Shown here piece by piece: positions 6,961-61,858 of a stretch of 64,000 nucleotides of DNA (the first letter of the stretch is position 1; every line of letters begins with the position of its first letter). The translations under genes and the position numbers were made by a program. The notes beneath the pieces are model-generated. The model was not told the DNA's origin and made no database searches. It was given only the letters and a program-made list of their open reading frames with translations. The DNA is taken from assembly GCA_903884655.1 (NCBI GenBank), contig CAISFO010000097.1:112430-176429 (forward strand), given 5' to 3'. The DNA is from an uncultured Holophagaceae bacterium (lineage in GTDB: Bacteria; Acidobacteriota; Holophagae; Holophagales; Holophagaceae).

Positions 6961-9060
6961 ATGAGGCCTTCCATGAAAATGTCCGGAACCATCGCCTTCA
7001 TGCTGGCCGCCCTCGGCGCCCCCCTTCCAGGCTCCCCGGGAGTCGTGCCCACTCCGGCTGCGGTTTCAGGGGTCGAGGCCACCTCCACCCGGCTGGTCCA
7101 GGAGCTGGTCACCCGGCATGGGGAAGGCCAGCGGGTCCGCATCCAGCGCGGGCTGAGGCAGGTGCGGGCCTTCTGGCGGACGGAAGACGGTGACGAACGC
7201 GCCTTCGAAGCCTTCGCGAAGGCCCACTTCGCGGGCGATCAGAGCGCGCAGGACGCGCTGTTCAACAGGCTGGAGTTCGTCCTGGAGAGCGCCTTCGGCC
7301 ACGCCCTTGAGGTCGGACGGGACTTCCGCTGGTACTCGGAACTGGACCTGGGGCCGATGCTTCCGGTGGATGAGGTCCTCTCAGGCTACGACCCTGGTGC
7401 CCACTTCGTCGATGATGCCTTCACGAACAAGCTGGCCTTCGCTGTGCTGTTGAACTTTCCCCTCTCCAGCCTGGAGGAACGCCAGCGGGACGGGGCGACC
7501 TGGACCCGCCGTCAGTGGGCAGAAGCTCGGCTCGTGGACCTCTTTGCCAAGCGCATCCCCGCCGAGGTGAACCAAGCCGCGGCCGAGGCCAGCGGCCAGG
7601 CCGAGCGCTACATCGCCTCCTACAACATCTGGATGCACCACCTCCTGGACGCCAGCGGCCATCGACTCTTCGAGCCCAAGAAGCGGCTGCTCTCCCACTG
7701 GAACCTGCGGGACGAGCTGAAGAGCCGCTATGCCGAGGGCCCCGGTGGCCTGGCCCGGCAGCGCATGATCCAGAAGGTCATGGAGCGCATCGTGACCCAG
7801 ACCATCCCGGCGGCGGTCATCGACAATCCCCTGGTGGACTGGAATCCGAATTCCAACCAGGTGCTCGCCAGCACGGTTCAGGACAGCGACCAGGCCATCC
7901 CGGCGGGATTCAAGCCGAGTTCCACCCCTGAACCCGACACGCGCTACAAGGTGCTGCTGGACTGCTTCCTGGCAGTGAGGAAGGCCGATCCCTGCAGCCC
8001 CACGGCGCCCACCCACATCGCCCGCAGCTTCGAGGAAGGTCGCCAGCTGCCCGAAGCCCGGGTGAAGGCCATCCTCGAAGAAGTCTGCGGCAGCCCGCTC
8101 GTAAAGCAGGTGGCCCGGGTCATCGAACATCGAGTAGGCCGCAAGCTGGAACCCTTCGATGTCTGGTACAACGGCTTCCGGCCGGGCGCCGGCCTGGATG
8201 AAACCAAGCTCGATGCGCTGATCAAGGCCAAGTACCCCACACCTGCCGCCTACAAGGCTGATATGCCCAACCTGCTGCAGGGCCTGGGCTTCAGTCCCGA
8301 ACGTGCCGTCTGGCTGGCCAGTCGCATCGAAGTGGACCCGGCCCGGGGCTCCGGCCACGCCATGGGTGCCCAGCGGCGGGCGGACAACGCCCACCTGCGC
8401 ACCCGGGTGGGCAGGGACGGCATGGACTACAAGGGCTTCAACATCGCGGTCCACGAAATGGGCCACAACGTGGAACAGACCTTCTCCCTGGTGAACGTGG
8501 ACCACTGGCTGCTGAACGGGGTGCCCAACACAGCCTTCACCGAGGCCCTGGCCTTCGTCTTCCAGGCCCAGGACCTGAAGCTCCTGGGCCAGCCCCTGCC
8601 CGACGCGAAGGCCCAGGCCGAAAAGACCCTCAACGATTTCTGGATGACCTACGAGATCGCCGGCGTGGGTCTGGTGGACACTGCCGTCTGGCACTGGATG
8701 TACGACCATCCCGCCGCCACCCCCGCGCAGCTCAAGGAAGCGGTGCTGGGCATCTCCCGGGATGTCTGGAACCGCTACTACTTCCCGGTGCTGGGGCAGA
8801 AGGACTGTGTGCTGCTGGGCATCTACAGCCACATGATCCACAGCTTCCTCTACCTGCCCGATTATGCCATCGGCCACTTGATCGCCTTCCAGATCGAGCA
8901 TGAGATCGAGAAGACCGGGAAGCTGGGCGAGACCTTCGAGCGCATGGCCATCCAGGGCCGCCTGACGCCGGACCTCTGGATGCGCGGGGCCACCGGCCGC
9001 CCCGTGGGCCCCGAGGCACTGCTGGATGCCACCGGGAAAGCATTGAAGGCCCTGCAGTAG
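6961..9060 (+). CDS. Exported zinc metallopeptidase-like protein (HEMGH gluzincin motif)
   Basis: N-terminal signal-like segment; FNIAVHEMGHNVEQTFSLVNVDHWLLNGVPNTAFTEALAFVFQ = HExxH plus downstream Glu. Confidence 0.7.
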   Translation: MRPSMKMSGTIAFMLAALGAPLPGSPGVVPTPAAVSGVEATSTRLVQELVTRHGEGQRVRIQRGLRQVRAFWRTEDGDERAFEAFAKAHFAGDQSAQDALFNRLEFVLESAFGHALEVGRDFRWYSELDLGPMLPVDEVLSGYDPGAHFVDDAFTNKLAFAVLLNFPLSSLEERQRDGATWTRRQWAEARLVDLFAKRIPAEVNQAAAEASGQAERYIASYNIWMHHLLDASGHRLFEPKKRLLSHWNLRDELKSRYAEGPGGLARQRMIQKVMERIVTQTIPAAVIDNPLVDWNPNSNQVLASTVQDSDQAIPAGFKPSSTPEPDTRYKVLLDCFLAVRKADPCSPTAPTHIARSFEEGRQLPEARVKAILEEVCGSPLVKQVARVIEHRVGRKLEPFDVWYNGFRPGAGLDETKLDALIKAKYPTPAAYKADMPNLLQGLGFSPERAVWLASRIEVDPARGSGHAMGAQRRADNAHLRTRVGRDGMDYKGFNIAVHEMGHNVEQTFSLVNVDHWLLNGVPNTAFTEALAFVFQAQDLKLLGQPLPDAKAQAEKTLNDFWMTYEIAGVGLVDTAVWHWMYDHPAATPAQLKEAVLGISRDVWNRYYFPVLGQKDCVLLGIYSHMIHSFLYLPDYAIGHLIAFQIEHEIEKTGKLGETFERMAIQGRLTPDLWMRGATGRPVGPEALLDATGKALKALQ

Positions 9061-9082: not shown

Positions 9083-9160
9083 GCGAGTTCCGCTGCATCG
9101 GGCACGGCCCGAGCCTCTGGAACTTCCCAGACCTAGCCCCCCCGCTAGGGCGGAACTCGC
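9083..9160. other. Four-way-junction inverted-repeat structure (11-bp outer stem enclosing three hairpins)
   Basis: GCGAGTTCCGC (9083-9093) pairs perfectly with GCGGAACTCGC (9150-9160); inside: TCGGGC/GCCCGA, TCTGG/CCAGA, CCTAGC/GCTAGG. Confidence 0.85.
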
Positions 9161-9168
9161 TTCTTATG

Positions 9169-9194
9169 CACCAGGACAAGCTGCCCTCCTGGTG
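9169..9194. terminator. Hairpin in convergent intergenic region, possible terminator
   Basis: CACCAGGA ... TCCTGGTG 8-bp perfect stem, 10-nt loop, between convergent stops; no strong T-run. Confidence 0.45.
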
Positions 9195-9220
9195 AATCCG
9201 ATAAACCGCAAGGACCTAAC

Positions 9221-9574
9221 TCAGGGCCCGATGGCAAGGCCCCCGGCTTCGCCTGTCCGGACCCGGTAGCATTCCTCCAGGTTCAGGACGAACACCTTTC
9301 CATCTCCCAGCGAACTCGGCCTGGAGCGGGCCGCGGACAGGATGGCTTCCACCGCGGGCTGAACGAATTCTTCGTTCACGGCGATCTCCAGCTTCACCTT
9401 GGGCAGCAGGCGCACAAGGCCGATCTTGTTGCCGCGGAACTGCTCGGCGAATCCTTTCTGGGTTCCGCAGCCGCGGACGTCTGACACGGTCATCAGGTAG
9501 ATGTCCTTGGCCACGAGGGCGGCCTGGACCGCTTCGAACTTGTCCGGTCGGATGATGGCGACGATCATTTTCAT
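9221..9574 (-). CDS. glnB: P-II family nitrogen regulatory protein
   Basis: MKMIVAIIRPDKFEAVQAALVAKDIYLMTVSDVRGCGTQKGFAEQFRGNKIGLVRLLPKVKLEIAV...GDGKVFVLNLEECYRVRTGE. Confidence 0.92.
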   Translation of the reverse strand: MKMIVAIIRPDKFEAVQAALVAKDIYLMTVSDVRGCGTQKGFAEQFRGNKIGLVRLLPKVKLEIAVNEEFVQPAVEAILSAARSRPSSLGDGKVFVLNLEECYRVRTGEAGGLAIGP

Positions 9575-9622: not shown

Positions 9623-11287
9623 TCACTTGTGCCCGGAGACCGGGACCTTGATGGGCGCGCCTGCCGGAGAAGCCAGGGCCGAGATCACGTACTCGGGATA
9701 GGCCGAGATGCCGTGTTCGTGGAGGTCCATGCCATCGTGTTCGCCATCCTCGGAAAGCCGCAGGAGGCCTTTGGCGTCGAGGGCATAGAAGACCGCGAAG
9801 GAAACCGCCAGCGTGGCCACGGTGACGATGCCGCTGCCGATGCCCTGGGCCAGCAGGACCTTGAACCCTCCGCCGTAGAACAGGCCCGTGAGCTTGCTGG
9901 ACAGATCGGGAGCGATGGGATCGCTGCCCGCTGCCGCGAACTGCCCGCTGGCAAACAGGCCCAGGGACAGGGTGCCCCAGATGCCGTTGATCATGTGGAC
10001 GGGCACAGCGCCAATGGGGTCATCGATCCGCAGATGCTCCAGCAGGTCGACGCCAAGGATGACGATGACTCCGGCGATGGCGCCGATCATCACCGAGCCG
10101 AAGGGACTCACCCAGTAGCAGGGGCAAGTGATGGCCACCAGGCCCGCCAGGAAGCCGTTGGTGATGGAGCCCGGGTCCCACTTCCCCGTGCGGAAGTAGA
10201 TGAAGAAGACCGCCGTCAATCCTGCGGCGCAGGCGGCGAGTGTCGTATTGGCGGACACCCGGCCGATGCCTTCGAAGTCCATGGCCGACAGGGTGCTGCC
10301 AGGGTTGAAGCCATACCAGCCGAACCAGAGCAGCAGGCCGCCGCAGACCGCGATGGTGAGATCGTGGGGCGTCATGGGACCACCGCCATCCCGCTTGAAC
10401 CTACGCCCGAGCCTGGGACCCAGGACGATGGCACCCGCCAGGGCCACGGCGCCACCGATGGTGTGAACCACCGTCGAACCGGCAAAATCGTGAAAGTTCA
10501 TGCCCAGCGAGGGCAGGAACTTGCCCGCAGCGCCCATGGTGGCGAGGAACCCGTCGGGCCCCCACGCCCAGTGGCCGATGATGGGATAGATGAAGCCAGA
10601 GACGGCGAAGCTGTAGAGGATATCGCCGATGAAATCCGTGCGGCCGATCATGGCTCCGGAGGTCACGGTGGAGCACGTGTCGGCAAAAGCGAACTGGAAG
10701 ATCCAGTGGGCCAGGAGCGCCACACCTGTGGTTCCGTAGGTGACCGGGGCACCCTTGAGGAAGAACCAGTGGTAGCCGATGAATCCATTGCCCTCACTGA
10801 ACATGAAGGCGTAGCCGATGGCCCAGAACAGGATGCCGCAGAGGCACGTATCAAACACGCACTCCACCAGGACGTTCACCGTCTCCCGGGAACGGCAGAA
10901 CCCGGCCTCGAGCATGACGAAGCCCACCTGCATGGCGAACACGAGGAAGGCCGCGATGAGGGTCCAGACCGTGTTCAGCGGGTTGACGATGTCCTTGGCG
11001 AGGACCACGGGTGGCGGGACGGGGGCCGGCGCGGCCTCCGGAGGCGTGACGGGCGCTGCCACGGGCGCCTGGGTGGCCGCTACCGGCGTATCCGCGCGAG
11101 CCGCGGTGCCCGTCAGCAGCAACGGAATCATCAGCATCATGCCCAGCACCAGGAGCATGCCCAGCAGCTTCCCGGAGGCCAGGGTCCAGCCGTAGCGTCG
11201 CCACTCCGGGTCCTTCAGCCGCTGGGCCAATCGATTGCGTTTCTCCTTCATCGTGAGCCGCTCTCCACGGGGTGTGATGTGCGTCAT
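9623..11287 (-). CDS. amtB: Ammonium transporter (Amt family)
   Basis: NTVWTLIAAFLVFAMQVGFVMLEAGFCRSRETVNVLVE...DFAGSTVVHTIGGAVALAGAIVLGPR...WYGFNPGSTLS... Confidence 0.95.
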   Translation of the reverse strand: MTHITPRGERLTMKEKRNRLAQRLKDPEWRRYGWTLASGKLLGMLLVLGMMLMIPLLLTGTAARADTPVAATQAPVAAPVTPPEAAPAPVPPPVVLAKDIVNPLNTVWTLIAAFLVFAMQVGFVMLEAGFCRSRETVNVLVECVFDTCLCGILFWAIGYAFMFSEGNGFIGYHWFFLKGAPVTYGTTGVALLAHWIFQFAFADTCSTVTSGAMIGRTDFIGDILYSFAVSGFIYPIIGHWAWGPDGFLATMGAAGKFLPSLGMNFHDFAGSTVVHTIGGAVALAGAIVLGPRLGRRFKRDGGGPMTPHDLTIAVCGGLLLWFGWYGFNPGSTLSAMDFEGIGRVSANTTLAACAAGLTAVFFIYFRTGKWDPGSITNGFLAGLVAITCPCYWVSPFGSVMIGAIAGVIVILGVDLLEHLRIDDPIGAVPVHMINGIWGTLSLGLFASGQFAAAGSDPIAPDLSSKLTGLFYGGGFKVLLAQGIGSGIVTVATLAVSFAVFYALDAKGLLRLSEDGEHDGMDLHEHGISAYPEYVISALASPAGAPIKVPVSGHK

Positions 11288-11388
11288 GTCTGGCTCCTTG
11301 AAGGTCAGGTGGTCGATTCCCGAATGGACAGAGGCTCCGCCAGCCGTCAAAGGGACCGACGGCAGGCAGAGCCTCGTCCGGATCGAGC

Positions 11389-26973: not shown

Positions 26974-27405
26974 ATGCGCCCCTTCATCCCTATTGCCGCC
27001 CTCGCGCTCGCTCTGTCACCGCTATTGGTGGTCCATCCCGTGCGGGTCTCAGGACGCAGCATGGAACCCGCCCTCAGGGACGGAGATCTGCGCTGGGCCC
27101 TGCGCGCCTGGGCCAGCCACCTGCCGCAACGAGGGGAGATCTGGCTCGTGGAAGGCCCCCATGGCAGCTCGGTGAAGCGGGTGCTGGGCCTGCCCGGCGA
27201 GACGGTGACTTGGCGTGGCCCGGATGTCTGGATCAGCGGCCGACGGCTCGATGAGCCCTGGGTCGTCCATCCCGAACGCAATGGGGACGGGCAATCTCTT
27301 TGCGGCCCAGGCTACCTGGTCCTCGGTGACAACCGTCCCGATAGCCAGGATGGACGCGCCTGGGGGCCAGTTCCAGCCCAGGCGCTGCGAGGTCGCTTGC
27401 TTTAA
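26974..27405 (+). CDS. Signal peptidase I-like (S26) protein
   Basis: VRVSGRSMEPALRDGD...SSVKRVLGLPGETVTW...YLVLGDNRPDSQDGRAWGPV. Confidence 0.85.
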   Translation: MRPFIPIAALALALSPLLVVHPVRVSGRSMEPALRDGDLRWALRAWASHLPQRGEIWLVEGPHGSSVKRVLGLPGETVTWRGPDVWISGRRLDEPWVVHPERNGDGQSLCGPGYLVLGDNRPDSQDGRAWGPVPAQALRGRLL

Positions 27406-27421
27406 GGCGCCGTTGCGAAAC

Positions 27422-28132
27422 CTAGGCCCCCAGGTACGCCTTGCGCACCATGTCATTGGCCTTCAGATTCTGTCCTGTGTCCGTCAGCACGATCTGGCCG
27501 GTCTGCAGGACGTAGCCGCGGTGCGCGATGGAGAGGGCCATCAGCGCGTTCTGCTCCACCAATAGGATGGTCGTGCCCCGGGCGTTCAGCTCCCGGATGA
27601 TGTCGAAGATCTGGTCCACCAGCACAGGCGCAAGGCCCATGGAAGGCTCGTCCATGAGCAGGATCTTAGGATTGGACATGAGGCCCCGGGCGGTGGCCAG
27701 CATCTGCTGCTCCCCTCCCGACAGGGTGCCGCCCTTCTGCTGGGCCCGCTCCTTCAGCCTGGGAAAGAGGGTGAAGGCGTTCTCCATGTTTGCTTCGATC
27801 TGCTTCTTATCATCGAGAATATAGGCACCCATCTCCAGGTTCTCGGTAACCGTCAGAGCCGGGAAGATGCCCCGGCCTTCCGGCACCAGTCCCAGCCCGT
27901 GCTTGTGCACCACATTGGGGGCCATATGGTGGATTTCCTTGCCCTCCAGTAGCACCGTGCCCCGGCGGGGATGCAGGAGGCCCGAGATGGACCGGAGGGT
28001 GGTGGTCTTGCCGGCGCCGTTGGCGCCGATGAGGGCCACGATCTCGCCCTGTTCGACCTTGAGGGACACGCCCATCAGGGCGTGGATGTTGCCGTAGTAG
28101 GAGTGGACGTCGTTCAGCTCGAGCAGGCTCAT
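27422..28132 (-). CDS. livF: Branched-chain amino acid ABC transporter, ATP-binding protein
   Basis: Walker A GANGAGKTTTLRSISGL, LSGGEQQML, ILLMDEPSMGLAP; LivF-type. Confidence 0.93.
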   Translation of the reverse strand: MSLLELNDVHSYYGNIHALMGVSLKVEQGEIVALIGANGAGKTTTLRSISGLLHPRRGTVLLEGKEIHHMAPNVVHKHGLGLVPEGRGIFPALTVTENLEMGAYILDDKKQIEANMENAFTLFPRLKERAQQKGGTLSGGEQQMLATARGLMSNPKILLMDEPSMGLAPVLVDQIFDIIRELNARGTTILLVEQNALMALSIAHRGYVLQTGQIVLTDTGQNLKANDMVRKAYLGA

Positions 28133-61691: not shown

Positions 61692-61766
61692 TGGGGAGTG
61701 GTCTAATGGTAGGACAACGGTTTCTGGTACCGTCAGGTGAGGGTTCAAATCCTTCCTCCCCAACCA
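61692..61766 (+). tRNA. tRNA-Gln (CTG)
   Basis: Acceptor TGGGGAG/CTCCCCA, anticodon stem ACGGT-TTCTGGT-ACCGT, T arm GAGGG-TTCAAAT-CCTTC, encoded CCA. Confidence 0.93.
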
Positions 61767-61783
61767 TTCACAATTTGGACGAT

Positions 61784-61858
61784 GGTCCCATCGTATAGCG
61801 GTTAGTACACCGCCCTCTCACGGCGGGAACAGGGGTTCGATTCCCCTTGGGACTACCA
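61784..61858 (+). tRNA. tRNA-Glu (CTC)
   Basis: Anticodon arm CCGCC-CTCTCAC-GGCGG, T arm AGGGG-TTCGATT-CCCCT, encoded CCA. Confidence 0.93.

Follow-up and report, generated by a model that had tools for sequence, protein, structure and literature searches.

The window, a stretch of 64,000 nt from an uncultured Holophagaceae bacterium, contains a compact four-armed inverted-repeat structure between two genes that face each other. The earlier note on this DNA had placed it between convergent genes, and this placement stands: the gene on the + strand encodes a 699-aa protein, that on the - strand is glnK, and both are supported as real and convergent. The spacer between them is 160 nt long. The element within it starts 22 nt past the stop codon of the 699-aa gene and is separated from the 3′ end of glnK by 60 nt. 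The features of the locus are as follows.

6961–9060, + strand: gene for the 699-aa HExxH-containing protein, upstream of the element
9083–9160, + strand: the whole four-armed element, as given by coordinates, pairing and RNA fold
9083–9093, + strand: outer 11-bp stem, 5′ arm GCGAGTTCCGC
9095–9114, + strand: arm 1, TCGGGC-ACG-GCCCGA with 2 basal pairs; overlaps the 12-mer CATCGGGCACGG
9116–9131, + strand: arm 2, TCTGG-AACTTC-CCAGA
9132–9149, + strand: arm 3, CCTAGC-CCCCCC-GCTAGG
9150–9160, + strand: outer 11-bp stem, 3′ arm GCGGAACTCGC
9161–9167, + strand: T-rich tail TTCTTAT, directly 3′ of the outer stem (score 2.75)
9165–9195, - strand: simple second hairpin of 8 bp, CACCAGGA/TCCTGGTG, between glnK and the element, reached first by glnK transcripts
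9221–9574, - strand: glnK (P-II, PF00543), convergent with the 699-aa gene
9623–11350, - strand: amtB (PF00909), codirectional with glnK and upstream of it

The pairing described earlier was reproduced exactly on re-examination, coordinates included. Positions 9083–9093 pair perfectly with 9150–9160 over 11 bp and enclose three perfect hairpins of 6 (+2), 5 and 6 bp, the first of which is extended at its base by two additional G-C pairs across an unpaired A. The arms were said to have almost no unpaired bases between them, and the four-way junction indeed has two. As RNA, the + strand has a minimum free energy of -49.2 kcal/mol (z -6.6) and the - strand one of -50.9 (z -4.2), while the element folded as single-stranded DNA gives -28.5 (z -6.2); in each case 0 of 200 shuffles were as low. 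The cloverleaf-like outline is not that of a tRNA, as had been noted before: there is no Rfam tRNA match at the element, and the only such matches in the window are two tRNAs at 61692–61855.

The 699-aa protein carries the motif HEMGH and has no sequence match in Pfam, NCBIfam or PDB. Geothrix and Holophagaceae genomes encode its closest relatives; the relatives as a whole span Acidobacteriota, Bacteroidota and other phyla, and with kin across several phyla it is a candidate for an unnamed metallopeptidase family. A separate observation concerns the 13-mer GAATCCGATAAAC, at 9194–9206 on the + strand, which recurs identically in one relative (L010) just upstream of the ATG of the gene that follows glnK and has a counterpart, ATTCCGATAAGC, in several other relatives. 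It resembles the -10 region of a promoter, and at 9194–9206 would point antisense into glnK.

Frequency of the architecture by chance

The strict architecture was defined as an outer stem of at least 11 bp enclosing at least three arms of at least 5 bp, with at most 2 unpaired bases. Statistics on architecture and spacers were drawn from genome samples of 321 and 587 kb. Random Markov-1 sequence with the dinucleotide composition of the genome yielded one such case in 60 Mb, and the 321-kb sample of the real genome contains one, the element at 9083–9160. When the outer stem was held fixed and the interior shuffled, the architecture reappeared in 9 of 20,000 sequences and the folding energy was equalled in 53 of 20,000. 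The criteria were chosen after the element had been seen, and these chance probabilities are thus optimistic.

It is very improbable that the element is a functionless coincidence of GC-rich intergenic DNA. This explanation draws on the absence of conservation and on the frequency of looser cloverleaf-like folds (stem of at least 9 bp, arms of at least 5 bp, at most 4 unpaired bases), which GC-rich DNA yields in number by chance: 2.75 are expected per 321 kb from shuffles, compared with 6 in the real sequence. Against it are the rarity of the strict form and the position of the element, which lies at a gene end, is followed by a T-rich tail, and belongs to a class of spacers enriched for structure.

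Searches for copies and homologues

The element is a singleton. BLASTN against its own genome returned only itself, as did a search of the same genome with a gapped pattern of the outer arms. BLASTN found no match in the 93 other genomes of the class, in a set of 59 relatives that took in further classes of the phylum, or in plasmids and phages, nor did the outer-arm pattern match any IMG/VR viral contig. The comparison with the 93 genomes is the BLASTN check for a dispersed family in the Holophagae that the earlier note proposed. With a single copy and no family, the suggestion of a REP/MITE-like repeat was not borne out.

A covariance model was built from the single sequence of the element and run on 46 genomes, its own and those of 45 congeners. 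The element itself scores 113.8 bits and the next match 28.3 bits, with the outer stem broken. No homologue was found in the 45 congeners, the weak matches having broken or missing helices and none of them lying near orthologous genes. The covariance search, which had also been proposed earlier, thus offered no homologue in these 45 genomes in which compensatory changes could be seen. Rfam gave no match at the gathering score, and below it only chance matches to miRNAs. The proposal of a structured RNA had been staked on homologues that preserve the four stems; none does, and a conserved structured RNA is therefore unsupported. A single-copy element without relatives argues against both a REP/MITE family and an RNA of this kind and, judged by sequence, the element is neither a dispersed repeat nor a conserved RNA within the 46 genomes of the genus.

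Three further explanations bear on these results. A solitary mobile or palindromic element (a MITE, half of a REP/REPIN or a decayed IS end) might have been inserted in the spacer, with the perfect 11-bp arms as its terminal inverted repeats. A recent insertion would account for such arms and for all relatives lacking the element. We nevertheless consider this unlikely, given the one copy in its own genome, the lack of any in the 93 class genomes, viral contigs, phages or plasmids, the lack of a transposase among the immediately flanking genes, and borders (AAAC | ... | TTCT) at which inspection of the flanks reveals no target-site duplication. A structured small RNA or a regulatory 3′-UTR, riboswitch-like or acting as a sponge, released from the mRNA of the 699-aa protein, is a little less plausible again. 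It would account for the strong, defined fold and for an interior more structured than its shuffles (9/20,000), but conservation within a genus is the usual expectation for a regulatory RNA, and here neither Rfam nor the 45 congeners supply a relative and no sigma-70-like promoter was found near the element. Finally, a site acting in DNA, as a cruciform or as a binding site for a protein or recombinase, e.g. attC-like, would be in keeping with the perfect inverted arms and with the single-strand DNA fold (z -6.2). The core motifs of attC are RYYYAAC and GTTRRRY. On inspection the outer arms lack them, there is no integrase among the neighbouring genes examined, and the element does not recur in its own genome; such a site is highly unlikely.

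Structure in convergent spacers and 3′ of glnK

Spacers of 50–300 nt were folded and compared with shuffles, using genes called in 587 kb of the genome and in 200 kb of each of two congeners; the calls rest on a home-made hexamer score, so that some spacer boundaries may be wrong. In the three genomes of the genus the median fold z of convergent spacers was -2.8, -5.2 and -1.5 (a small sample, n=17, 6 and 8), compared with -0.4, -0.4 and -0.1 for divergent spacers and -0.5, -0.9 and -0.9 for tandem spacers. Convergent spacers are thus enriched for structure. In most of the strong ones the structure is a single long, perfect hairpin such as ATGAAAACGGCCCC-GGAT-GGGGCCGTTTTCAT or AGAAAGGGCGCC-GAGA-GGCGCCCTTTCT. 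The element had been described as far exceeding a simple terminator, which was an overstatement, since hairpins of equal or stronger z are regular in the convergent spacers of the genus. It is the only tight cloverleaf among the 31 convergent spacers; a second fold is multibranched too, with 6 unpaired bases at its junction and a z of -0.2.

Strong structure is also frequent 3′ of glnK. In 12 of 21 relatives a fold with z of -3 or lower lies within 130 nt of the stop, in sequences unrelated to the element. The same tight convergent gene pair was found in one genome only (L041/L007), where the spacer holds a 13-bp hairpin, CCGTGCCCGATGG...CCATCGGGCACGG. An arm of the hairpin in this syntenic relative and arm 1 of the element have the 12-mer CATCGGGCACGG in common, for which the chance probability is about 0.002 per comparison and higher given that some 20 relatives were compared; the same comparison also gave a 13-mer match to a different relative, with the strand sense reversed.

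Several other palindromic structures were encountered. Within the window, a signal-peptidase-like gene and a livF-like ABC gene are convergent, and a strong long hairpin at 27359–27434 (10-bp outer stem, -44 kcal/mol) spans the end of the former; it is another likely convergent terminator. In Geothrix limicola (L036/L042) the orthologue of the 699-aa gene is followed on its 3′ side by a large inverted repeat richer in AT, GAACCGCGAATGACGCTAATTCGCGCG...CGCGCACATTCGCGGTTC, possibly a dispersed palindromic element. The palindrome CGGGGGTTCCTCGC...GCGAACACCCCCGGG (G000:C3:10047-10088, L208; L199-L207) is present in 11 of the 41 genomes searched, all of this genus, at about one copy each, and is an unnamed palindromic element found genus-wide. 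A terminator-like hairpin, CAACCTGGCTAA..ATCAGAG.GGCGCG...CGCGCCTCTCTGAGCCGGGTG, is found in tandem spacers of G019 (L173-L174 region) and G032 (L163) and, unlike the element at 9083–9160, is common to two species.

Terminator features and the proposed reading

The T-rich tail directly 3′ of the outer stem is absent from the earlier description and points back to a terminator. With a d'Aubenton-Carafa-type T score, the + strand tail TTCTTAT reaches 2.75, a value attained at 0.23–0.26% of random positions (P 0.0023–0.0026), although it is short and interrupted. The tail on the - strand is poor, its score of 1.46 being attained at about 5% of random positions (P about 0.05). A stable GC-rich stem lies near and downstream of a stop codon (22 nt; z -6.6), and a T-rich tract follows it immediately on the + strand only. 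A plain scan for a single compact stem-loop by consensus gave 0 sites at the element because its stem is branched.

Gupta and Pal (2021, PMC8355165) report intrinsic termination by adjacent hairpins that cluster near stop codons, in many cases with no poly-U. The element has the form of such a cluster, i.e., two or more hairpins less than 15 nt apart that start within 80 nt of a stop: its three inner hairpins are 0–1 nt apart and lie 34–89 nt past the stop of the 699-aa gene. At E. coli gene ends, most inverted repeats with arms of at least 8 bp and spacers of at most 8 bp belong to intrinsic terminators (PMC6060812).

We regard the element as probably an unusually branched intrinsic terminator or 3′-end hairpin, serving mainly the + strand gene and possibly bidirectional. 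From sequence comparison it is best read as a known kind of structure in a local, fast-evolving form, the branching being what is unusual. A more specific proposal, in which the closing stem of a branched terminator wraps a four-way junction, works from both strands and was built from a simple ancestral hairpin by loop expansion, is doubtful.

As a branched terminator, the element would lie between the two convergent genes as a 3′-end structure that ends transcription and shields mRNA ends. While RNA polymerase moves off the 699-aa gene, the three small hairpins would form successively in the + strand transcript. At the moment when the polymerase gets to TTCTTAT, the two arms of the outer stem would pair, and the closing stem would act as the intrinsic-terminator hairpin, with a weak U-rich hybrid after it. 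Such a folded end would, in addition, hinder 3′ exonucleases. Transcripts of glnK would meet the simple hairpin at 9195–9165 first and then the complementary cloverleaf; since the - strand is without a good U-tract, the element would there stabilise the 3′ end or form a backup barrier. What persists at this spot would be the presence of strong structure alone, while the sequence turns over fast. If the branched stem does terminate transcription, the loop of a terminator hairpin can be replaced by a four-way junction, and finders built on a single stem-loop and a T-run miss such terminators, as did the scan used here. Otherwise, the element is one example of fast hairpin turnover between convergent genes in Geothrix-like Acidobacteriota.

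Among known systems, REP/REPIN and MITE palindromic repeats are likewise intergenic, palindromic and compact; the element differs in being single-copy, without a family, and with no target duplication seen. With intrinsic (Rho-independent) terminators at convergent gene ends it shares a strong GC stem soon after the stop, a T-rich tail on the + strand, the convergent placement, and perfect inverted arms that can be read from either strand. In contrast to these terminators, it has a four-way junction carrying three arms where they have one loop at the top of the stem, its T-tail is interrupted, and the - strand has no good T-tail; the branched stem of 78 nt is also far larger than a canonical terminator hairpin. 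The hairpin-cluster termination units (PMC8355165) resemble it in having several short hairpins (5–8 bp) less than 15 nt apart near the stop, with poly-U unnecessary, whereas in the element the cluster is wrapped by an additional 11-bp outer stem, which makes of it a closed four-way junction.
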